A stretch of 64,000 nucleotides of DNA, taken from the NCBI RefSeq assembly GCF_018736105.1, contig NZ_CP076135.1, forward strand, positions 3,780,001 through 3,844,000, read 5' to 3'. Positions 10,000-50,578 of the stretch are shown piece after piece. This stretch comes from Bradyrhizobium sediminis (GTDB taxonomy: Bacteria > Pseudomonadota > Alphaproteobacteria > Rhizobiales > Xanthobacteraceae). Under the pieces are notes generated by a model. It ran no database searches, was not told where the DNA came from, and was given only the letters and a program-made list of their open reading frames with translations. Within the stretch, counting starts at the first letter, position 1; each line of letters opens with the position of its first letter. A program made the position numbers and the translations under genes.

Positions 10000-11076
10000 C
10001 TACTTCCGCACGATATGTCTGGTCGGCGTCATCGTGCTGGCGGGTGCGGCCTCCGAGATCGAGAATGTCAGCCAGGTATTCCAGCCGGACGGCCGGTTGG
10101 CGGCGTCGAACTCGCCATATCCCTTCAGGCCGAGAAATGCCTGGTTGCTGCCGATCGGAAAGATATATCCGATCTGCGGGCCCGCGCCGAGAACGCGCGA
10201 GCGGAAGCCGCCGAGAATGGCGGGCTGACCGAAGTCGTCGGTGATCTGCTGGTAGGCGTAGCCGACGAAGCCGACAAAGACCTGCTTCGACAGGAACTGC
10301 GACACGCCCCAGTCGAAATGGAAATCGATGCCGCTCTGGTACTGGGTATCGGGGTTCTTGAAATTGTAGGTGAAGCCGCCGACGCCGGAGAATTCCGTGC
10401 CGGTCGCGGGATTCAAATAGGTGTAGCCGCCGCCGAAATCGATGGCGCCGTGACCGATGCCGATATTGGCCAGCCGGTTCGGATTGTAGTCGCCGACGGG
10501 AATGTCGCCCGCGCCGTAGACCATGTAGTTGTGGACGCCGTTGTTCCACTTCAGCTTCAAGGTCGGATAGAGATCGCCATAGGAGACGAGCGCGTCTTCG
10601 AGGAATCCATTGCGCGTGGTCACGATCGGCCCCGCCCCCACGGTCAGCGTGCCGTCGAGGCTCGCGGAATTCCGGCCGTAGACGCCGGCGAGCGTCGCCG
10701 ACAACTGGCCGCCGAGCACCGGCGTCGCGAAAGTATAGGTCGGCGCGATCAGCACCAGGTCGGCCTGGCCGCGCAAGGCCACATTGAGATCGATGTTGAC
10801 GGTCGGCGAAAATCTCCCGACCTGGAATTCCCGCGATGCGGCCGCCGCCCCCGAGGCGCCCACGGAGGTATGATAGTAGATCGCGGCGACCGACCAGCCC
10901 GGCGTGGCCGGCGTGGCGGCGAGGCTGCCGTACAATCCCGGAAGCCAGAACGAGACGCCGCTTTCGTCGGCACGCGCGATTTGAGGAGAAAGCGCAGCAA
11001 GCACGGTGGCGGCCAAGCCGGCGCTCAACTTTCGCCGCAAAATGCCGGATCTCAATACCGATATCTCAGGTTGCAT
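10000..11076 (-). CDS. Outer-membrane channel-like protein (SphA/MetA-pathway phenol-degradation family type)
   Basis: A 358-residue protein with a Sec signal peptide (cleaved after about residue 36, ARA-DES). Alternating beta strands follow (FWLPGLYGSLAA near the N-terminus; GGGYTYLNPATGTEFSGVGG-like strands later), which is typical of SphA-like transporters and MetA-pathway outer-membrane proteins. The start was placed at ATG 11076, where GGGGA precedes it; a longer frame to 11136 lacks this and disrupts the signal peptide. The next gene on the same strand upstream is an arylsulfatase, so it may import sulfate esters or other aromatics (inference). Confidence 0.7.
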   Translation of the reverse strand: MQPEISVLRSGILRRKLSAGLAATVLAALSPQIARADESGVSFWLPGLYGSLAATPATPGWSVAAIYYHTSVGASGAAAASREFQVGRFSPTVNIDLNVALRGQADLVLIAPTYTFATPVLGGQLSATLAGVYGRNSASLDGTLTVGAGPIVTTRNGFLEDALVSYGDLYPTLKLKWNNGVHNYMVYGAGDIPVGDYNPNRLANIGIGHGAIDFGGGYTYLNPATGTEFSGVGGFTYNFKNPDTQYQSGIDFHFDWGVSQFLSKQVFVGFVGYAYQQITDDFGQPAILGGFRSRVLGAGPQIGYIFPIGSNQAFLGLKGYGEFDAANRPSGWNTWLTFSISEAAPASTMTPTRHIVRK

Positions 11077-11266
11077 TGGCGGTCCCCGCAAGTTCGATGG
11101 CAAAGCCAGTTGATTCCTGGAGATTTCGCGACGCAAGATGAAAATGGCCCGAAGGCGTCGATCTATCCCGCGTGAGGCTTTGATGCCACATCCCGGCAGC
11201 GCGCAATTCGATTATTGCGCGCTGCACGAGACCGAGTCTTCACGCGACCGCCGGTTCGGCCGCATC

Positions 11267-13948
11267 TCACTTCATGCAGTTGCGGACGTACTGGACTCGT
11301 TCGACAAGCCCGAGGGCCAGCGCCTGGGCCTGCTTGCGGCAGCCCTCACGCTTGTCCAGGCGCAACTCCACCTTCTGAAGCAGGCTCAGGCCGACACCGC
11401 TCGAAACCTGCGGCGCGGCGGCCTCAGCCGAGGCACCGCCGGCATCGGCTGACGGTCCGTCGCCGGCCGCCCGCGCCGCGTCCTGCAGACGCTTGATGTC
11501 GGCGGGACTCAATTTCGGCCGGTCGATGGTCAGCGCGATCTTGTTCAGTGTGCCGGTGAAGGCGAACGGCGCGCTGTAGTCGTTGTCGTCGACCGGCGTG
11601 CCGGTGTCCGACCCGATATCGAGCGACTCATCCCATTGCAGGATGAAGGGAAGCGTATGCTCCATTTTCTCGGTCGCGACCATCTTGCCATCGACCTTGA
11701 GCTCGCCAGTGCCGCCCTTGCCGATGCCGCTGTAGTCGCCGAACGCTATCGTCGCGGCGCCCAGACCGTCATACTTGAAATCGAACTCGATCACGTGCTT
11801 GCCGGGGGTCAGCTCCGGCCCTTCCCAGCGCACGCGCTTGAGGTCGACCAGGTTCCAGGTGAACACCGGCTTGTTCTTCAGCACGTAGAGGCCGTAGCCG
11901 CCGAACCGCCCGCCTTGCGTGATCAGCATGCCCTCGGCGCCGCCTTGCGGAACCTCGACGTCCACCTTGAAATTGTAGGAGGCGTTGAGCAGGCTCGGCG
12001 CGTCGCCGTTCGGCGTTCCCGTGAGCGGGCGGATCCAGGTGAAGGAGGTGCGGCCGGCGCTCAGGCTCGGCCGTGGCGTGATCATCCGCGAGGCCATCGA
12101 CGAATCGAGCGGCAGCACCTGGTATTTCTGCGCTTCCTTCCAGAACAGCTCCTGCATCTCCTTCAGCTTGGCCGGATTCCTGGCCGCGACATCCTCATAT
12201 TGCGTCCAGTCGTTCTTGAGATCGTAAAGCTCCCAGGGATAGTCGAGCGGGCTCGGCAGCTTGGCAACCGTCACCCACGGCGGCCGCATGACCTTGGTAG
12301 AGGCGATCCAGCCGTCATTATAGATCGCGCGGTCGGCGAACATCTCGAAATACTGCGTCTTGTGTGTCGAGGGCGCGTTCGCATTCTTGGCATCGAAGGT
12401 GTACATCATGCTGACGCCCTCGATCGGGCTCTGCTTGATGCCGTCCACCATGGCCGGCTGCTTGATGCCGGCTGCCTGCAGGATCGTCGGCACGACATCG
12501 ATGACATGATGGAACTGATGGCGGATGCCGCCCTTGTCGGCGATCCCCTTCGGCCACGAGATCGCCATGCCCTGGCGGGTGCCGCCGAAATGCGACACTA
12601 TCTGCTTGGTCCAGGAGAACGGCGTGTCGAATGCCCAGGCCCAGCCGATCGACATATGGTTGTAGGTGCGGTCGGTGCCCCAGACGTCGTAGAAATATTT
12701 CAGCTGCTCCTCGACCGATGGGTTGGCCTGGTTGAACATCGCCACTTCGTTCGGCGTGCCGTTCGGCTGGCCCTCGGCGCTGGTGCCGTTGTCGCCGTTG
12801 ATGTAGATCACCAGCGTGTTGTCGAGCTTGCCAAGGTCGTCGATCGCCTGGATGACGCGGCCGATTTCATTGTCGGCGTAGGCGACGTAGGCGGCGAAGA
12901 TTTCGACCTGCCGGATGAACAGCTTCCTTTCGTCGGGGTTGAGCTGGTCCCATTCCTTGATCAGGTCCTTCGGCCACGGCGTCAGCTTGGCGTTCTGCGG
13001 AATGACGCCGAGCTTCTTCTGGTTTTCGAAGATGGTTTCCCGCAGCTTGTTCCAGCCCTGGTCGAACAGCTTCATGTCGCTGATCTTCTTGACCCACTCA
13101 GGCGTCGGATGGTGCGGCGCGTGGGTGGCGCCCGGCGCGAACTTGATCAGGAAGGGTTGCTCGGGCGACAATGTATGAACGCGATTGACGTAGTCGATCG
13201 CCTCGTCGGCCATCGCCGTCATCAGGTTCCAGCCGGGTTTGCCGACGTAGGGATAGATCGGCGTGGTGTTCTGGACCAGATTGCCCGGCTCCCACTGATT
13301 GGTGTCGCCGCCCATGAAGCCGTAGAAATATTCAAAGCCCATCCCGGTCGGCCACTGATCGAAGGGGCCTGCCTGGCTCGCCTGGTATTCCGGGGTGTTG
13401 TGGTTCTTGCCGAACCAGGCGGTGTGGTAGCCGTTGTCCTGCAGGATGCGGCCGATCGTGGCCTTGTCCTTGGTGATGACGCTGTCGTAGCCGGGAAAGC
13501 CAGTGGCCTGCTCGGCGATCACGCCGTAGCCGACCGAGTGATGGTTGCGGCCGGTGATCAGCGCGGCGCGGGTCGGCGAACACAGCGCAGTCGAGTGAAA
13601 ATTGGTGTAGCGCAGACCGTCCCTGGCGATGCGGTCGAGCGCCTGCGTCGGAATCACGCCGCCGAAGGTCGAAGGCACGCCATAGCCGGAATCGTCGGTG
13701 ATGATCAGCAGCACGTTCGGCGCGCCCTTCGGCGGCACGATCCGCGCCGGCCAATAGGGCGTCGACTTGGTCGCCTCGCGCTCGATCTTGCCGCCGAATT
13801 TCTCCGGCGGCGCCGGAAGCTGATCGCCGGGAATGGTTGTCGTAGCGCTGGGCGAGCCCGGAACGCCGGTGATCTGTTGCGCGCCTGCCGAAACGGAAAC
13901 CAGCAACGACACGCTCAATGCTGCGAAAACCGATTGATAGGATTTCAT
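11267..13948 (-). CDS. Arylsulfatase, exported (paralogue 1)
   Basis: An 893-residue type I sulfatase. It has a Sec signal peptide (residues 1-23), the metal-binding DD pair in LLIITDD (about 85-86) and the sulfatase signature LCSPTRAALITGRNHH, with the cysteine to be converted to formylglycine at about 123. It hydrolyses sulfate esters in the periplasm or outside the cell. The start was set at 13948, which has GGGAGAG before it and begins the signal peptide directly. The C-terminal third has a beta-sandwich-like region and then an Ala-rich linker and a cysteine-containing tail. It is closely related to the sulfatase at 16018 but divergently arranged. No formylglycine-generating enzyme is in the window. 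Confidence 0.93.
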   Translation of the reverse strand: MKSYQSVFAALSVSLLVSVSAGAQQITGVPGSPSATTTIPGDQLPAPPEKFGGKIEREATKSTPYWPARIVPPKGAPNVLLIITDDSGYGVPSTFGGVIPTQALDRIARDGLRYTNFHSTALCSPTRAALITGRNHHSVGYGVIAEQATGFPGYDSVITKDKATIGRILQDNGYHTAWFGKNHNTPEYQASQAGPFDQWPTGMGFEYFYGFMGGDTNQWEPGNLVQNTTPIYPYVGKPGWNLMTAMADEAIDYVNRVHTLSPEQPFLIKFAPGATHAPHHPTPEWVKKISDMKLFDQGWNKLRETIFENQKKLGVIPQNAKLTPWPKDLIKEWDQLNPDERKLFIRQVEIFAAYVAYADNEIGRVIQAIDDLGKLDNTLVIYINGDNGTSAEGQPNGTPNEVAMFNQANPSVEEQLKYFYDVWGTDRTYNHMSIGWAWAFDTPFSWTKQIVSHFGGTRQGMAISWPKGIADKGGIRHQFHHVIDVVPTILQAAGIKQPAMVDGIKQSPIEGVSMMYTFDAKNANAPSTHKTQYFEMFADRAIYNDGWIASTKVMRPPWVTVAKLPSPLDYPWELYDLKNDWTQYEDVAARNPAKLKEMQELFWKEAQKYQVLPLDSSMASRMITPRPSLSAGRTSFTWIRPLTGTPNGDAPSLLNASYNFKVDVEVPQGGAEGMLITQGGRFGGYGLYVLKNKPVFTWNLVDLKRVRWEGPELTPGKHVIEFDFKYDGLGAATIAFGDYSGIGKGGTGELKVDGKMVATEKMEHTLPFILQWDESLDIGSDTGTPVDDNDYSAPFAFTGTLNKIALTIDRPKLSPADIKRLQDAARAAGDGPSADAGGASAEAAAPQVSSGVGLSLLQKVELRLDKREGCRKQAQALALGLVERVQYVRNCMK

Positions 13949-14146
13949 GATGAAGCTCTCCCGGTACGATCGAACGCCGCCTGAAGCTGCGGCAACATTT
14001 GAGACATGTATTTTCATCGCGTGGAGCAGACAATTACAGGATGGCAGACGATGGCGCGTTTGCTCTCGATTCAGGTCAAATATCGGACGATTGGATTTTC
14101 GTGACCGCCCCGCGGTTCGTGCGGAACGGTCGCTACGTTCTTCGGC

Positions 14147-14821
14147 TCAATAGCAGGGTGGATAGGGGTAATAGCCGCATGCGGGGCGCGCATACGGGCC
14201 GTAAGCGGCGGCACCGACCGCAGCGGCTCCCACCGCCGCCGCGCCGGCATAGTAGGCCCCGCGATAGGCGGTACGGCGCGCGACGCCCGCGAACGACATC
14301 GGGGTGAACGGCCGGCCGATAATGTCGATGAAGACAGAGGCGGCGCCATCGGCCCCCTTCAAGTCGCCCTCGAGCACATCGACGTCGAATGTCAACTGTT
14401 CGCCCTCGAGCTTGGGACTCTTCAGCACGACCACGACATCCTTTACGCCGGAGCCGTCCTTGGTAAATCCCGAAACCGTGGCGTTCGGCGGATCCTTGGC
14501 GAAGTTATCGCTGCCCTTGGCCCAATCGTCGATGATGTGCGTGGTGAGATCATGACCGGCGGCGCGCACCGGGCGATCGGCGAAGACGATGGAATTCGGC
14601 GCCACTCCGGTCAACACCAATTTGTTGCCTTGCAGGCTCACACCTTTCGAATTCAAGACAATCAGCGACGGCACGACCTCGGGCTTGGCCTGCCCGCCGA
14701 TCGTCTTTTGCAGCGGAACATGCGGCGGGGCAGCGGGCGTTCCCTGGGCCAATGCCAAAGCCGGCACACAAAGAAGACCACCAGCGATAATCATCGTACG
14801 AATAATGGGAGAGCAATTCAT
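14147..14821 (-). CDS. Small exported protein of unknown function, predicted FNR/FixK-controlled
   Basis: A 224-residue protein with a clear Sec signal peptide (residues 1-26, cleaved after ALALAQ). The middle is beta-rich and has no family I can name. The tail is rich in Ala, Gly and Tyr and ends PACGYYPYPPCY. The ATG at 14821 was chosen because AGGAGG lies 6 nt before it; a frame extended to 14953 would run through the promoter. A perfect TTGAT-N4-ATCAA box (14877-14890) is centred 62.5 nt upstream, with CATAAG at the exact -10 position for an FNR-type class II promoter. It lies between two sulfatase genes. Confidence 0.82.
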   Translation of the reverse strand: MNCSPIIRTMIIAGGLLCVPALALAQGTPAAPPHVPLQKTIGGQAKPEVVPSLIVLNSKGVSLQGNKLVLTGVAPNSIVFADRPVRAAGHDLTTHIIDDWAKGSDNFAKDPPNATVSGFTKDGSGVKDVVVVLKSPKLEGEQLTFDVDVLEGDLKGADGAASVFIDIIGRPFTPMSFAGVARRTAYRGAYYAGAAAVGAAAVGAAAYGPYARPACGYYPYPPCY

Positions 14822-14876
14822 GAACCACCTCCTGCAGAATGCAAAAAACTTATGCCCCTTCAACTCGTAAAGCGGT

Positions 14877-14890
14877 TTGATTTGTATCAA
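14877..14890 (-). promoter_or_regulatory. FNR/FixK box upstream of the 14821 gene
   Basis: A perfect dyad TTGAT-N4-ATCAA. If centred at -41.5, the -10 hexamer should begin 22 nt after the box; CATAAG sits exactly there on the minus strand, and a 20-nt leader with AGGAGG follows. This is the target type of FixK2/FnrN in rhizobia. Confidence 0.75.
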
Positions 14891-14957
14891 GCGTGAATGA
14901 CGAACGCGTGATTGCATAAACCCCTTGCAAACATGTCGATGATCTTGCTTCATCTGT

Positions 14958-14978
14958 GTCAGCGATATTGACGCTGAC
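14958..14978. promoter_or_regulatory. 7-7-7 palindrome between the divergent small genes
   Basis: GTCAGCG and CGCTGAC form a perfect 7-bp dyad around a 7-nt centre, midway between the two divergent FixK boxes. It could be a second regulator site or a hairpin. The regulator is unknown. Confidence 0.35.
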
Positions 14979-15003
14979 GGAAGCCATGGACGATTTGGGA
15001 TCG

Positions 15004-15017
15004 TTGAGCTGAATCAA
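15004..15017 (+). promoter_or_regulatory. FNR/FixK box upstream of the 15074 gene
   Basis: TTGA-GCTGAA-TCAA matches the FixK2 consensus TTG(A/C)-N6-(T/G)CAA. Its centre is 63.5 nt before the ATG at 15074, almost the same geometry as the boxes at 14877 and 15570. A TGATAT/TATGCT -10-like sequence follows at about the right distance. Confidence 0.7.
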
Positions 15018-15073
15018 GCGTACCGTCGTAACCATCCGTCTGATATGCTTCTCACTTTTCGGAGGAGGCTCTG

Positions 15074-15445
15074 ATGAAGATTGCGCTGTTATCGATGGCG
15101 ATGATTGGCGGTCAAGTGGCGATCCCTGTCAGCGATCGCGTTCCCAAACTCAATGTCGAGGCGACATGCAGGGCGACGGTCGCAGCCGACAAGGCGATGG
15201 GCCTCGCCCTGCCCCAGAGCTACGAGGATTGCATGCGCGACGAGAATGACGCGCAACAACAGCTGAATTCCGTTTGGCTCTCGAACTCCAACGAGATCAG
15301 AGACCAATGCGAGGGCGAGGCGACGGCAGCCGGAAGCGACAGCTATGTCGACCTTCTTACTTGCATGCAAATGGCAGACGCGGCCAAGTTGCTTTCTCCC
15401 GCGCCTAAGCTCCGAGGCGCGAGCAAAAACCGAAATAGCAAATGA
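15074..15445 (+). CDS. Small secreted cysteine-containing protein, predicted FNR/FixK-controlled
   Basis: A 123-residue protein with a short hydrophobic N-terminus that may be a signal sequence. Four cysteines are spread through the chain (in ATCRATV, EDCMRDE, DQCEGEA and LTCMQMA). This is the pattern of small helical proteins common in Bradyrhizobium, whose function is not known to me. GGAGGAGG precedes the ATG, which fixes the start. It is divergent from the 14821 gene, and an FNR/FixK box lies at 15004-15017. Confidence 0.75.
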   Translation: MKIALLSMAMIGGQVAIPVSDRVPKLNVEATCRATVAADKAMGLALPQSYEDCMRDENDAQQQLNSVWLSNSNEIRDQCEGEATAAGSDSYVDLLTCMQMADAAKLLSPAPKLRGASKNRNSK

Positions 15446-15569
15446 CGCGCATGAGATGCGTCAGCTCAAGCGGTGCTATTCAAATGCCGCAGATAGGATC
15501 CCACCTCGCCGATCTTCCGACCCCGTCACAGACGGTTCGCGCCTTTCACTCAGGCCTACGGCTGACACA

Positions 15570-15583
15570 TTGACCTGCATCAA
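15570..15583 (+). promoter_or_regulatory. FNR/FixK box upstream of the 15639 gene
   Basis: TTGA-CCTGCA-TCAA matches the FixK2 consensus. The centre lies 62.5 nt before the ATG at 15639. A weak -10 (TCATTT) begins 22 nt after the box. It is the third such box within 710 bases. Confidence 0.7.
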
Positions 15584-15638
15584 CGAGCAGGTCATCCTGT
15601 TGGGGTCATTTGGGACTTCTGAAACAACGGAGACCGAC

Positions 15639-15878
15639 ATGAAGCTTTCGATAGCATTATCGGCACTGCTGGTAACCGGGTTCATGGCTGCTGGCACCAA
15701 ACAAGCCAGCGCCGTGGTTTACTGCCAATACATCGAGTACCCCGTCGGTTGCATCGTCAGGCCGGGCGTCGTGCTGCGGCCGCGGCCGGTCGCGCGAGCC
15801 GTGGTGACTCCCGGCGTCGGCGTCCGTGGCACGCCGATGAATCGCGGCGGTCCGGTCAATCGCGTCGGCAGGCGCTGA
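15639..15878 (+). CDS. Very small exported protein, predicted FNR/FixK-controlled
   Basis: A 79-residue protein. Residues 1-24 form a Sec signal peptide (MKLSIALSALLVTGFMAAG...ASA). The mature part is about 55 residues, has two cysteines (YCQYIEYPVGC) and is rich in Arg, Pro, Val and Gly. No family was recognised. The frame is open far upstream, but the ATG at 15639 has ACGGAG before it and starts a clean signal peptide. It lies between another small exported gene and sulfatase 2. Confidence 0.7.
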   Translation: MKLSIALSALLVTGFMAAGTKQASAVVYCQYIEYPVGCIVRPGVVLRPRPVARAVVTPGVGVRGTPMNRGGPVNRVGRR

Positions 15879-16017: not shown

Positions 16018-18456
16018 ATGAAACGATCAGCCTTGTTCGTCCTGACACTTTCCTTGATGACGTCTTTCGGGTTTTCCGCAAACGCCCAGCAGGCCGCGCC
16101 CGCGGCCGTCGTCTTGCCGACCGATCGCTCGGTGCTGCCAATTCCAGAACCCCAGTATCCGCACAGCACCGTGTTTGACGCACGCAATGCGACGCCGCCG
16201 CCGCGATTCGAGGTCAAGGCGCCAGCCGCCGCGCCCAACGTTCTCATTGTGCTGATCGACGACATGGGCTTCGGACAATCGAGCGCATTCGGCGGGCCGG
16301 TAAGGATGCCAACGGTGGAGAAGCTCGCCAACGAGGGTCTGCGCTACAACGAGTTTCACACCACGGCACTTTGCTCGCCGACACGAGCCGCGCTGCTCAG
16401 CGGTCGCAATCATCACATGAACAACATGGGCTCGATTACTGAGACCGCTACCGCTTTCCCCGGGCAGACCGGGCAGCGCCCCAATAGCGTCGCGCCGGTC
16501 GCGGAGATGCTCCGGCTCAACGGCTACAGCACTGCTGCGTTCGGCAAGTCGCACGAGACCGCGGCTTGGGAGGTCAGCCCCTCCGGCCCGACCGACCGTT
16601 GGCCGACCCGCTCCGGCTTCGACAAATTCTATGGATTCATCGGTGGCGAGACCAACCAATGGGCGCCGCTGCTCTACGACGGCATGACCCTGGTCGAACC
16701 GTCGCAGGACCCGAACTATCATTTCATGAATGATATGACCAACCAGGCGATCGACTGGATCCAGTACCAGAAGTCGCTGACGCCGGATAAGCCGTTCTTC
16801 ATCTATTTCGCGCCCGGCGCCACCCACGCGCCGCATCAGGTGCCGAAAGAATGGATCGCCAAGTACAAGGGCAAGTTCGACCAGGGCTGGGACAAACTGC
16901 GCGAGGAAACGCTGGCCCGCCAGATCAAGCTCGGCGTGGTGCCCCCGGACACCAGGCTCGCGCCCAAGCCCGAAGCCATCAAGGATTGGGACAAGCTCGG
17001 CGCCGACGAGAAGAAGCTGTTCGCCCGGCAGATGGAAGTGTTCGCCGGCTTTGGCGAATACGCTGACACCGAGATCGGCCGCCTGATCGACGCCATCAAG
17101 GCGACCGGCCAACTCGACAACACGCTGGTATTCTACATCGTCGGCGACAACGGCGCGAGCGCCGAAGGCGGCATGAACGGGTTGTTCAGCGAGATGACCT
17201 ATTTCAATGGCGTGCAAGAGACCGTTCAGGACATCATCAAGCATTACGACGAACTCGGCAGCCCCTCGACCTACGGTCACTACGCCGCCGGGTGGGCGGT
17301 TGCGGGCGACACACCCTTCACCTGGACCAAGCAGGTCGCCTCCAGCTACGGCGGCACCCGCAACGGCATGGTGGTTCACTGGCCAAAGGGAATCGCGGCG
17401 AAGGGCGAGGTGCGCTCGCAGTGGCATCACGTCATCGACATCGCGCCGACGATCCTCGAAGCGGCTGGCTTGCCCGAACCGAAGAGCGTCAATGGAACGC
17501 CGCAGACTCCCATCGAAGGCGCGAGCATGGCCTATACCTTCGCCAATCCGAAGGCGCCGAGCACTCACACCACGCAGTATTTCGAGATCTTCGGCAACCG
17601 CGCGATCTACAGTGACGGCTGGCTGGCCGGCACGGTTCACCGGGCGGCGTGGGAAACCAAGCCGCGCCGGCCGCTCGAACAGGATATCTGGGAACTTTAC
17701 GATACGCGGTCGGACTTCAGCCTGAGGAATGATCTGGCTGCCAGGAATCCCGACAAGCTGAAGGAAATGCAGGAACTCTTCCTGAAGGAAGCGGTCAAAT
17801 ATACCGTTCTGCCGCTCGACGACCGGACCCTGGAGCGTACCAACGCCTTGCTCGTAGGACGCCCCGACCTGATGGCGGGCCGCACCTCCTTGACCGTTTA
17901 CCAGGGAATGCTCGGCATGTCGGAGAATGTCTTCATCAACCTGAAGAACCAGTCCCACACGATTACAGCGGACGTGGAAGTCCCGAAGACCGGCGCCAAC
18001 GGTGCGATCATTGCCCAGGCCGGGCGGTTCGGCGGCTGGAGTCTCTATCTGAAGGACGGCAAGCCGACCTACACCTACAATTTTCTCGGCCTGCAGCGTT
18101 ACACGATAGCCGCCAAGCAGGCGCTGCCTGCCGGGAAAGGGACGCTGCGCTTCGAGTTCGCCTATGACGGCGGCGGTCTCGGCAAGGGCGGCGTCGGCAC
18201 GATACTGTTCAACGGGAAAACCGTCGCCACCGGCCGCATCGATCGTACCCAGTGCTGCTTCTTCTCTGCGGATGACGGCACAGACGTCGGCGCGGATGAG
18301 GGCACACCCGTCACCGAAGCCTACAAGGTGCCCTTCAAGTTCACCGGAAAGATCGGCAAGGTCACGATTGAATTGAAGGAAATGAAGAAGGCCGATCGCG
18401 ACGACGCCGATAAAGCCCGAAAGGAAGCTGTCATCAAGAAAGCGTTGGCCGACTAG
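16018..18456 (+). CDS. Arylsulfatase, exported (paralogue 2)
   Basis: An 812-residue type I sulfatase with a Sec signal peptide (residues 1-23), LIDDMGFG metal ligands (DD about 81-82) and the signature LCSPTRAALLSGRNHH with the formylglycine cysteine at about 119. Like paralogue 1 it carries a C-terminal beta-rich region after the catalytic domain. AGGGGAAG precedes the ATG. A strong terminator follows at 18522. A direct repeat (ACTACCTTC twice, 15952-15973) lies in its leader. It has no FixK box at the position seen for its small neighbours. An open frame on the opposite strand is only its shadow. Confidence 0.94.
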   Translation: MKRSALFVLTLSLMTSFGFSANAQQAAPAAVVLPTDRSVLPIPEPQYPHSTVFDARNATPPPRFEVKAPAAAPNVLIVLIDDMGFGQSSAFGGPVRMPTVEKLANEGLRYNEFHTTALCSPTRAALLSGRNHHMNNMGSITETATAFPGQTGQRPNSVAPVAEMLRLNGYSTAAFGKSHETAAWEVSPSGPTDRWPTRSGFDKFYGFIGGETNQWAPLLYDGMTLVEPSQDPNYHFMNDMTNQAIDWIQYQKSLTPDKPFFIYFAPGATHAPHQVPKEWIAKYKGKFDQGWDKLREETLARQIKLGVVPPDTRLAPKPEAIKDWDKLGADEKKLFARQMEVFAGFGEYADTEIGRLIDAIKATGQLDNTLVFYIVGDNGASAEGGMNGLFSEMTYFNGVQETVQDIIKHYDELGSPSTYGHYAAGWAVAGDTPFTWTKQVASSYGGTRNGMVVHWPKGIAAKGEVRSQWHHVIDIAPTILEAAGLPEPKSVNGTPQTPIEGASMAYTFANPKAPSTHTTQYFEIFGNRAIYSDGWLAGTVHRAAWETKPRRPLEQDIWELYDTRSDFSLRNDLAARNPDKLKEMQELFLKEAVKYTVLPLDDRTLERTNALLVGRPDLMAGRTSLTVYQGMLGMSENVFINLKNQSHTITADVEVPKTGANGAIIAQAGRFGGWSLYLKDGKPTYTYNFLGLQRYTIAAKQALPAGKGTLRFEFAYDGGGLGKGGVGTILFNGKTVATGRIDRTQCCFFSADDGTDVGADEGTPVTEAYKVPFKFTGKIGKVTIELKEMKKADRDDADKARKEAVIKKALAD

Positions 18457-18521: not shown

Positions 18522-18556
18522 GGCCGTCGCCGCTCCCCCGGCGGCGGCCATTTTTT
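18522..18556 (+). terminator. Rho-independent terminator after sulfatase 2
   Basis: An 11-bp stem (GGCCGTCGCCG/CGGCGGCGGCC, one G-T pair) with a short C-rich loop is followed by A and six Ts. It lies 66 nt past the sulfatase stop. Confidence 0.88.
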
Positions 18557-18674: not shown

Positions 18675-21149
18675 TTGGCAAAATCCCGACGTTCTCGCAG
18701 CGGCAAAGATTCGATTAAGCGCTCCGAGCCTAACTCCGCGGTTTCAAAACGGGAGACGCCGGACGGCGTTGCAAAGCCGTTCACAATGCGCGCCATGGTA
18801 CTCGCGGTCGCTGCCGTTGCCATGGCTGTGTTCGCCGGCGGCCTGTTATGGCAATCGTGGTTCAATGGCAAACCGTCGCCAACCCGTCCCGAAACTGCCA
18901 CCGTTGCCGTCGCGACCTTCGTCGGCAGCGAGACTTGCGCAGGCTGCCATCAGGCGGAGGCAAAGCTGTGGAATGCCTCGCAGCACAAGGCCGCGATGCA
19001 GCACGCCACCGACAAGACCGTGCTCGGCGATTTCAACGACGCCAGCTTCGACTATTTCGGCGTGCGTTCGCGCTTCTTCCGCAAGGATGGCAAATTTCTC
19101 GTCGAGACCGACGGCCCCGACGGCAAGCTCGCCGTGTTCGAGGTGAAATACACTTTCGGCATCGATCCGCTGCAGCAATATCTCGTCGAATTCCCTGACG
19201 GACGCATCCAGGCGCTGTCGCTCGCCTGGGATTCGAGGCCGTCAGCCAAAGGCGGCCGCCGCTGGTTTCACCTCTCACCCAACGAGGAAATCCGTCACGA
19301 CGATATCCTGCACTGGACCAAACTGAACCAGAACTGGAATTTCATGTGCGCGGAGTGCCACTCCACCGGTGTCGCCAAAAACTACGACGCCAAGGCCGAT
19401 CGCTTCGCCACCACATGGGCGGAAATCAGCGTCGGCTGCGAGGCCTGCCATGGCCAGGGCTCGCATCACGCCGCATGGGCGCGCGGCCGGCAGAGCTGGT
19501 GGCCGTTCGGCAAGCAGCAGGATTCGAGCAAGGGATTGCTGGTGCGTTTCGACGAGCGTCGCAACGTCGCCTGGCCGATCGACGCGCAGACCGGAAACGC
19601 ACGGCGCAGCCTCGCGCCGGCGACGCTGCGCAAGGAAGTCGAGACCTGCGGCCTGTGCCACGCGCGCCGCGCCGCGTTCCACGCCGGTTGGGTGCCCGGC
19701 CAGTGGCTGTCGCAGACCCACGCGGTCGAAGCGCTGGCGCGCACCACCTATCATGCCGACGGCCAGCTTCGCGACGTCGAGGAGCCGTATAATTATACGC
19801 CGTTCAAGCAGGGTAAGATGTTCGCCGCCGGCATCACCTGCAGCGATTGCCACGAGCCGCACAGCGCGAAGCTTCGCGCTTCAGGCGAAGGCGTCTGCCT
19901 GCAATGTCATGCGTCCGACAAGTATGCCGACGCCGGACATCGCCGTCACGCCAGCGCCGACGCAGCCCCGACCTGTATCTCGTGCCACATGCCGGCCCGC
20001 ACCTACATGGTGGTCGATATCAGGCACGATCACGCCTTTCGCGTGCCGCGTCCCGATCTGTCGGTTACGCTGGGGACGCCGAACGCCTGCAACGACTGCC
20101 ACCGCGACAAGCCGGCGCAATGGGCCGCCGCCGCGGTCGAGCGATGGTTCGGTCCCGACCGCAAGGGCTTGCAGAACTATGGCGCGGCGTTCCATGCCGC
20201 GCGAACCGATGCGGCCGATGCCGCAGCCCTGCTCGGCGTGATCGCCGCGGACAAGAATGCGCCGGCCGTCGCGCGCGCCGGCGCGCTTTCAGAACTCGCC
20301 TCCCGCATCTCCCCGGCCAACATCGCGACCGCGCGAGCAGCCCTTGCCGATCCCGATCCGATGGCGCGGATCGGCGCGCTCGACATGCTGGAGAACGTGC
20401 CGGCCAATCAGATCTGGCCGATTGCCTCTCCGCTGCTCGCCGATCCCGTGCGCGGCGTCCGGATCAGGGCGGCCTCATTGCTCGCGGCCGTCCCCACCGC
20501 AAGCCAGCCGCCGGCGGATCGCGCGCGCTTCGACCAGGCGGCCACGGAATTCATCGCGGCGCAGCGCGCCAATGCCGAGCGGCCGGAAGCCCGCACCTCG
20601 CTGGCAAATTTTCTCGCCCAGCGCGGGCGGAGCGACGATGCCGAGACCGAGTACAAGGCCGCGCTGAAACTCAGCCCGCAATATGCGACGGCGGCGATCA
20701 ATCTGGCCGACCTCTATCGGCAACGCGGTCGTGACACCGACGGCGAGGCCGTGCTGCGCGCCGCGCTCGGTGCGTCGCCGCGCGATGCCGCCGCGCATCA
20801 CGCCCTCGGCCTGACCTTGAGCCGGCTCATGCGGCCGGATGACGCGCTCGCCGAATTGCGCAAGGCGGCCGAGCTCGAGCCGGATCAAGCGCGCTACGCT
20901 TATGTCCACGCCGTCGCGCTCAATTCCGGCGGACGCCGCGACGAAGCGATGGCCGTTTTGAAGGAAGCCTTGAAGCGCCACCCCAACGATCGCGACATCC
21001 TGGGGGCGCTGGTTTCGTTCAGCCGCACCGCCGGCGATGCCGGCGCCGCGCTCGGTTACGCCGAACAGCTCGCGATCCTCACGCCGGAAGACCGGAATTT
21101 GGCGGCGCTGATCGGGGAACTCAAGCGGCAGACGGGCAAGGCGAATTAG
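18675..21149 (+). CDS. Membrane-anchored octaheme cytochrome c with TPR domain
   Basis: An 824-residue protein with an N-terminal anchor or uncleaved signal (about residues 39-61). Eight CxxCH heme-binding motifs follow in order: CAGCH, CAECH, CEACH, CGLCH, CSDCH, CLQCH, CISCH and CNDCH, the first at about residue 88. After the heme part come HEAT-like repeats (about 510-620) and then several TPR units to the end. It is therefore a periplasmic multiheme electron-transfer protein or reductase fused to an interaction scaffold; the substrate is unknown. The start is TTG with GGAAGGA before it; ATG at 18786 is a possible shorter start. It follows sulfatase 2 in the accessory block. Confidence 0.88.
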   Translation: MAKSRRSRSGKDSIKRSEPNSAVSKRETPDGVAKPFTMRAMVLAVAAVAMAVFAGGLLWQSWFNGKPSPTRPETATVAVATFVGSETCAGCHQAEAKLWNASQHKAAMQHATDKTVLGDFNDASFDYFGVRSRFFRKDGKFLVETDGPDGKLAVFEVKYTFGIDPLQQYLVEFPDGRIQALSLAWDSRPSAKGGRRWFHLSPNEEIRHDDILHWTKLNQNWNFMCAECHSTGVAKNYDAKADRFATTWAEISVGCEACHGQGSHHAAWARGRQSWWPFGKQQDSSKGLLVRFDERRNVAWPIDAQTGNARRSLAPATLRKEVETCGLCHARRAAFHAGWVPGQWLSQTHAVEALARTTYHADGQLRDVEEPYNYTPFKQGKMFAAGITCSDCHEPHSAKLRASGEGVCLQCHASDKYADAGHRRHASADAAPTCISCHMPARTYMVVDIRHDHAFRVPRPDLSVTLGTPNACNDCHRDKPAQWAAAAVERWFGPDRKGLQNYGAAFHAARTDAADAAALLGVIAADKNAPAVARAGALSELASRISPANIATARAALADPDPMARIGALDMLENVPANQIWPIASPLLADPVRGVRIRAASLLAAVPTASQPPADRARFDQAATEFIAAQRANAERPEARTSLANFLAQRGRSDDAETEYKAALKLSPQYATAAINLADLYRQRGRDTDGEAVLRAALGASPRDAAAHHALGLTLSRLMRPDDALAELRKAAELEPDQARYAYVHAVALNSGGRRDEAMAVLKEALKRHPNDRDILGALVSFSRTAGDAGAALGYAEQLAILTPEDRNLAALIGELKRQTGKAN

Positions 21150-50196: not shown

Positions 50197-50578
50197 CGTG
50201 TAGGGCGTATAAGCCGAAGGTGCAATCCGCGGATGCGCAGAGTGGAGCCGACGGATTACGCTTCGCCGTTTCGTCCTCGCGGCCCTTCGCTGCGGGATGT
50301 TTCTGGCACTCGCCAAAACCTCGCGGCGGAACGCCGGAACACCGCCCGTCCGGAACGATTGACACCGGTCAATGCCGGGACTCGAATCTTCCGCGTTAAG
50401 GCATATGTACGGAGTGTGACAGCCGCGCCGGCGAAGCACCAAGCTGGCGTTGTCAAGGGACTGCACAACGCGGCTTTTTTGCCCTATGGGTCTTCGGATA
50501 TCGGGCGATTGGGGTAATGCCTGTCATCGATCGCTGCGAAAAGGCCTGCAACTGGTTGCCGCCCTGCCGGGAGGACGA
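50197..50578. other. Intergenic stretch after the restriction gene
   Basis: These 382 bases have no supportable gene. The part at about 50205-50275 (TGCAATCCGC...ACGGATTACGCTTCGC) looks like a decayed intergenic repeat common in the group. A terminator-like hairpin lies at 50447-50480. The next gene's ribosome-binding site, GGGAGGA, lies at 50569-50575. Confidence 0.5.
50447..50480 (+). terminator. Hairpin with T-run between the R-M island and the next gene
   Basis: GCGTTGT and ACAACGC form a 7-bp stem with an 11-nt loop, followed by GGC and six Ts. It could end read-through from the restriction gene 250 nt upstream. Confidence 0.5.

Follow-up and report, generated by a model that had tools for sequence, protein, structure and literature searches.

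What do three perfect regulator-type palindromes do in front of three short genes that lie between two sulfatases? The question is raised by positions 14147 to 15878 of a 64,000-nucleotide (nt) stretch of the Bradyrhizobium sediminis genome (the window; contig NZ_CP076135.1, positions 3,780,001 to 3,844,000, forward strand), where the genes, here termed g1, g2 and g3, are each preceded by a box of the FixK/FNR type. The reading that we favour, with a probability of about 75% on the evidence of sequence, is that the boxes serve class II activation, by a FixK-type regulator, of a low-oxygen sulfatase and envelope module. An earlier note on this DNA had proposed an oxygen-responsive envelope module made up of the three small proteins; taken as a whole, that interpretation is partly supported.

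Boxes before g1, g2 and g3 and their probable regulator

Re-reading of the sequence bore out three boxes that fit TTGA-N6-TCAA perfectly, with centres 62.5, 63.5 and 62.5 nt from the respective start codons (Table 1). All three are perfect copies of the FixK2-type palindrome TTG(A/C)-N6-(T/G)CAA, the same box as in the FixLJ-FixK2 regulon of Bradyrhizobium diazoefficiens (PMC9104804 and PMC5582078, in the sections available). Box-to-start distances of B. diazoefficiens FixK2 targets are comparable, lying mostly at -47 to -150 and ranging from -22 to -287 among the rows listed in Table 2 of PMC9104804.

A 14-mer with eight fixed letters is expected about 0.7 times per window, and the boxes could be chance matches, or relics, that have no promoter function. 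The counts argue against this. Four perfect boxes occur in the window against a mean of 0.70 (standard deviation 0.87) in shuffled sequence, four being reached in 1 of 100 shuffles. The host genome, a 5.45-Mb single contig, carries 156 perfect boxes as compared with 18 for a reversed-pattern control, which indicates that the site is in use by the genome. When 68 of the 156 were examined, four lay inside a gene as drawn by a crude gene caller; because this caller trims starts, the distances quoted here refer to named start codons or to starts placed by alignment with residue 1. The excess of 156 over 18, the close FixK2 orthologue and the fixN and fixG boxes, with spacings of 62.5 and 63.5 nt (see below), together make chance a very improbable explanation. 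It was rejected on the shuffle, reversed-pattern, spacer and density controls: the boxes are enriched in the window, in the genome, at sulfatase loci and in the density of a set of named loci, they recur in other genera, and a -10 element lies at class II distance.

The fourth perfect box of the window, TTGACACCGGTCAA (50359-50372), is away from the module. Elsewhere in the genome, perfect boxes form two dense clusters, C1:2221939-2246360 and C1:2764566-2789371, each about 25 kb long and holding 11 and 10 sites, respectively.

A cognate FixK2 and FixLJ are present in the genome. The Bradyrhizobium japonicum FixK2 chain 4i2o matched its orthologue over the whole length (E 3.9e-126), and the orthologue adjoins FixJ-like and FixL-like genes and fixNOP-type cbb3 oxidase genes, followed by fixG (names from translations). 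It has Cys where the solved chain has Ser; the solved structure is a C183S variant, and C183 is the redox-sensitive residue of FixK2 (PMC9104804, in the part available). The boxes before fixN and fixG lie 62.5 and 63.5 nt from the starts, with residue 24 of the listed frame, a methionine, as the fixN start. The same spacing is seen at g1, g2 and g3, and equal spacing was rejected as a peculiarity of these three genes. A FixK2 orthologue with boxes at fixN and fixG is also the arrangement of the B. diazoefficiens regulon, in which fixNOQP and fixGHIS are named as FixK2-activated (PMC9104804, same sections).

The conservation of the boxes, the -10 position in module promoters (both described below) and the common spacing at fixN and fixG strongly support promoters of the FixK/FNR class II type. 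A response to oxygen would follow from the regulator family, and FixK2 is most likely the regulator of the module. The boxes may instead serve another CRP/FNR protein, such as an FNR-type regulator encoded at C1:4017066 or a nitric-oxide-responsive paralogue, so that the signal may be anoxia or nitric oxide rather than microoxia sensed by FixLJ. FNR-type proteins recognise the same palindrome as FixK. The genome gives 19 matches to HTH_Crp_2, 16 of them over the cut-off, and the protein at C1:4017066, which has an N-terminal cysteine cluster (CTDC...C), is flanked by two boxes. The presence of the FixK2 orthologue, the identity of the module spacing with that of fixN and fixG, and the activation of fixNOQP and fixGHIS by FixK2 in B. 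diazoefficiens (PMC9104804, as above) count against this alternative, and we consider it unlikely.

Conservation of the boxes and position of the -10 element

A search of 146 genomes of the genus gave matches at E <= 0.001 to g1 in 110 genomes, many of them covering merely its C-terminal 50-60 residues, to g2 in 84 and to g3 in 119. The best 30 loci for each gene, the locus in the window included, were examined for a perfect box 40-200 nt upstream. The earlier note had pointed to loss of the boxes in relatives that keep the genes, and on this the outcome was mixed: the box was found before g3 at 17/30 loci, before g2 at 9/30 and before g1 at 5/30. Other module genes flanked four of the five boxed g1 copies but not the fifth (L017). 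In g2 relatives of at least 70% identity the box, where present, lay at 70-77 or 102-106 nt, that of the window lying at 63.5 nt, and two boxless g2 copies (L032 and L039) were downstream of a boxed g3 on the same strand.

A further set comprised 67 named Bradyrhizobium loci with g2 homologues (785,690 bases), in which the neighbours of g2 include, as in the window, a PF13557 protein, sulfatases, a multiheme tetratricopeptide (TPR) cytochrome, g1 and g3. One of these loci, L111 of B. nitroreducens TSA1, carries sulfatase B, g3, g2, the cytochrome and the PF13557 gene. A perfect box was found 40-260 nt upstream of 19/26 sulfatases, 5/8 g1, 4/7 g3 and 15/65 g2 copies, 5/16 PF13557 genes and 2/15 cytochrome genes. 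Matches unaligned in the first 60 residues or with <150 nt of upstream sequence were left out of these counts, as were sulfatases of <35% identity or with <250 aligned residues, leaving 26 sulfatases and 65 of the 67 g2 loci. At the same 26 sulfatases, patterns with an N5 or N7 spacer and the reversed pattern were not found (0/26 each), and TCAA-N6-TTGA was found once. Of the 95 boxes in the 67 loci, 49 fall within the 20-300 nt ahead of module genes, as compared with 1.1 expected there from the genome density. The remaining 46 exceed the 22.5 expected for all 785,690 bases, which suggests that there are more FixK targets nearby.

Box conservation was high at sulfatase A, the gene behind g1. 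Its relatives occurred at E <= 1e-100 in 89 of the 146 genus genomes, and a perfect box stood 30-300 nt upstream at 25 of the best 30 loci (reversed pattern, 0/30). The sulfatase A of the window is among the five without a perfect box, 25 of the 29 other loci being boxed; it has a box with 7/8 letters and lies behind the boxed g1. Since the named and genus loci share genomes (for example L114/L222, L118/L248 and L122/L250), the sulfatase counts of 19/26 and 25/30 are not independent. A search of 198 genomes of the family found 50 with a relative of sulfatase A at E <= 1e-100. Among 28 loci from this search a box lay 30-300 nt upstream in eight (reversed pattern, none): 2/3 from the same genus and 6/25 from other genera. 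Three loci of other genera (L273-L275) show the order box-g3-sulfatase B, the same as in the window, with sulfatase B 83-86% identical and the box 64.5, 64.5 and 76.5 nt from g3. The same order is present in L063, L064, L067 and L076.

The position of the -10 element was assessed in module promoters whose box lies 55-85 nt from the start; 79 were collected and then thinned to 60 whose flanks were <70% identical. After alignment on the box centre, T stood at +34.5 in 43/60 and A at +30.5 in 29/60. The preference for T has p = 9.5e-14 under an assumption of independence, which related promoters do not have; with the strictest thinning it was seen in 32/48. By gene, T at +34.5 occurred in 4/6 g1, 6/8 g2, 11/18 g3 and 22/28 sulfatase promoters. 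With the ATG as anchor, no T column exceeded 27/60, and Shine-Dalgarno G columns appeared instead. With the box centre placed at -41.5, +34.5 would be T(-7) and +30.5 would be A(-11), the two letters that are strongest in -10 elements. This indirectly, and for the set of promoters, points to a -10 element at the class II position. Among the three window promoters, T falls exactly at +34.5 in that of g3 only. For g1, the earlier note had named CATAAG as a class II -10; the position and the A at -11 agree with this, and the last letter, G where T(-7) is due, does not. At nosR, one transcription start site lies 40.5 nt from the box and a second at 67.5 (PMC5582078, in the sections available).

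Two sulfatases and their neighbours as a candidate module

Table 1. Positions of the genes, boxes and promoter elements in and around the candidate module (window coordinates; aa, amino acids).
Feature	Positions	Strand	Description
g1, 224 aa	14147..14821	-	Signal-like N-terminus; core predicted to be beta-rich, with a Gly/Ala helix at the C-terminus (low confidence)
g2, 123 aa	15074..15445	+	Cys 32, 53, 79 and 97 invariant in 30 homologues; predicted four-helix core
g3, 79 aa	15639..15878	+	Basic protein (mature pI 11.5), predicted to be exported; two Cys unchanged across 24 homologues
FixK/FNR box of g1, TTGATTTGTATCAA	14877-14890	-	Perfect TTGA-N6-TCAA; centre 62.5 nt before ATG 14821
FixK/FNR box of g2, TTGAGCTGAATCAA	15004-15017	+	Perfect TTGA-N6-TCAA; centre 63.5 nt before ATG 15074
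FixK/FNR box of g3, TTGACCTGCATCAA	15570-15583	+	Perfect TTGA-N6-TCAA; centre 62.5 nt before ATG 15639
-10 element CATAAG of g1	14849-14854	-	-12 to -7 with box centre at -41.5; A at -11 fits, G instead of T at -7
Possible -10 TGATAT of g2	15041-15046	+	Putative; 1 base further downstream than in other module promoters
Possible -10 TCATTT of g3	15606-15611	+	Putative, from the -10 columns of the module promoter set
Sulfatase A	11267..13948	-	PF00884, CSPTR motif; behind g1
Degenerate box TTGACCTGAATCGA	14066..14079	-	7/8 letters; 124.5 nt before sulfatase A start
Sulfatase B	16018..18456	+	PF00884, CSPTR motif; behind g3; without a box of its own
Strong intrinsic-terminator-like hairpin	18522..18549	+	After sulfatase B; 11 pairs, 10 G-C, T6 tail
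PF13557 protein (Phenol_MetA_deg; probable outer-membrane protein)	10000..11136	-	Behind sulfatase A; recurrent neighbour in relatives; start uncertain
Octaheme TPR cytochrome	18675..21149	+	8 CXXCH; recurrent neighbour; start uncertain; without a box here

The sulfatases and the octaheme cytochrome named in the earlier note as neighbours of the three genes are indeed there. The sulfatases (812-893 aa) match PF00884 at 173.1 and 212.6 bits against a cut-off of 25, and their C-x-P-x-R motif is CSPTR in both. Eight PF00884 matches, five of them large, occur in the genome, CxPxR having been examined in the window pair alone. Boxes stand before two further sulfatases, 72.5 and 96.5 nt from the ATG, and the fifth large one has none. 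The set is larger than the earlier note had assumed, and the envelope module was drawn too narrowly there: the best-conserved boxes are those of the sulfatases and g3. Its core includes the two large flanking sulfatases; the cytochrome and the PF13557 protein are looser neighbours.

In the scheme that we favour, a FixK-type regulator, most probably FixLJ-dependent FixK2, would activate transcription from the three boxes in the class II position, where the box is centred at about -41.5 and reaches the -35 region of a sigma-70 promoter. At low oxygen the regulator would turn on three transcripts with short leaders. The leftward transcript would carry g1 and sulfatase A, perhaps with the PF13557 gene; of the rightward ones, the first would carry g2 and the second g3 with sulfatase B, ending at the terminator at 18522. 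Together, the products would constitute a periplasmic or envelope module for sulfate-ester hydrolysis, with two formylglycine-type sulfatases and, as putative exported accessory proteins, the beta-rich g1, the cysteine-paired helical bundle g2 and the tiny basic g3. Gene order is suggestive of a functional tie between the small proteins and the sulfatases. Inclusion of the octaheme cytochrome in the g3 transcript was rejected because the strong terminator-like hairpin intervenes; terminator-like sites across the region show no excess (9 as compared with 10.2 in shuffles).

Several observations weigh against a sulfatase module of this kind, and some of them would suit a different arrangement, in which the small proteins are envelope proteins in their own right, regulated by FixK and placed by chance among sulfatases at a regulon hot spot that has no functional unity. 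Boxed g3 without a sulfatase in the 1.5-kb flanks was found at 10/30 loci, or 10 of the 20 that lack such a sulfatase (one of them, L062, is cut by a contig end). Boxed g2 occurs without sulfatase neighbours in L034-L036 and L038. Sulfatase adjacency was not significantly associated with the box (Fisher test: g3, p 0.26; g1, 0.31; g2, 0.74). A hot spot does not readily explain why g3 directly precedes sulfatase B here, in four related loci and in three other genera, nor why the order g3-g2-cytochrome faces sulfatase B in L081 and L084, and we regard it as possible but doubtful. Further points against the proposed low-oxygen sulfatase module come from the counts given above: the box is present at just 5/30 g1 and 9/30 g2 loci, 25 of the best 30 g1 loci lacking it, and a sulfatase has its own box at just 6/25 loci of other genera. 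In the window itself, the g1 promoter has G at +34.5 and that of g2 fits 1 base off, and the cytochrome gene stands behind the hairpin and has no box. Finally, the activity of the sulfatases is not assured, since neither a canonical formylglycine-generating enzyme (FGE) nor an anaerobic sulfatase-maturating enzyme (anSME) over the cut-off was found in the genome.

Sulfatase maturation, known systems and the small proteins

Four matches to PF03781 were found in the genome (C1:1103544, 2066665, 5381582 and 3675438; L197-L200), and the best NCBIfam matches of these segments, all below the cut-off, were to PvdO (three) and EgtB (one). FGE is recognised by a cysteine pair, and oxygen is a substrate of the classic enzyme; none of the four PF03781 proteins shows this cysteine pair. 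The anSME family TIGR03942 reached 34.4 bits in the genome as compared with a cut-off of 349.45.

Tentatively, the locus may represent a low-oxygen sulfatase system not described before, found in Bradyrhizobium and genera close to it, switched by FixK and not by sulfate starvation, with three new families of small envelope proteins. With no recognisable FGE or anaerobic maturase in the genome, maturation at low oxygen would then have to follow an unrecognised route, to which these small partners or the PvdO-like PF03781 proteins may contribute. If so, envelope sulfate-ester hydrolysis in a widespread soil and nodule genus would depend on oxygen shortage instead of, or in addition to, sulfur starvation. 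A first regulatory context would be gained for three families whose homologues number from hundreds to thousands, and it would become testable how sulfatases of the formylglycine type mature when oxygen is scarce.

The closest known systems differ in regulation. Arylsulfatase chains, including 1hdh (E 1.1e-48, 536 aa), which we take to be the arylsulfatase PAS of Pseudomonas aeruginosa, are the best solved relatives of sulfatase A. The P. aeruginosa arylsulfatase cluster is reportedly a member of the cys regulon, being so called in the title of a paper. In contrast to that sulfur-regulated cluster, the window sulfatases have oxygen-type boxes, and they are longer. Sinorhizobium medicae likewise has rhizobial arylsulfatases, in arylsulfatase-ssu clusters, and sulfatase activity was measured in nodules; its arylsulfatases are linked to sulfonate transporters, and a FixK box, a multiheme cytochrome and g1-g3 are unmentioned in the available part of that paper (PMC4053727). 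The same part reports that B. japonicum expresses organic-sulfur genes in symbiosis, and together with the nodule activity this fits a use of sulfatases at low oxygen. In the B. diazoefficiens work, 'sulfatase' is absent as a word from the main texts of PMC6515984, PMC10454721, PMC6710368, PMC9104804 and PMC10888616; that strain may lack the module. Among the papers listed in literature searches none linked sulfatases with FixK, an earlier mention elsewhere being possible, and none was found on an arylsulfatase together with a multiheme cytochrome and tetratricopeptide.

The small proteins, to which the earlier note could assign no function, gave no match over any Pfam or NCBIfam cut-off and none in PHROGs, and g2 had a single sub-threshold Pfam match (E 0.24). 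A profile search of g1 against the Protein Data Bank returned one match only (E 0.44), and its predicted fold has a pLDDT of 57. The predicted structure of g2 consists of four helices, with block means of pLDDT of at least 85 across residues 21-100. Homologues total 437 for g2, 2238 for g3 and 6349 for g1. The description of the three as small and exported holds in part. In a simple scan, which is not a signal-peptide predictor, g1 and g3 show a hydrophobic N-terminus and an AxA site, as would be expected of exported proteins; in g2 the hydrophobic stretch is short and an AxA site is lacking near residue 20, and export of g2 is doubtful. At 224 aa, g1 is not very small.

The last approximately 57 residues of g1 (window 14150-14320), a Gly/Ala stretch ending in CGYYPYPPCY, recur within the genus on further short reading frames, with an identity that is often about 75%, and would constitute a shared C-terminal module. 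Strongly conserved basic C-terminal tails were noted in g2 (LRGASKNRN, 15410-15442) and g3 (NRGGP..R.GRR, 15840-15875), which possibly bind polyanions.

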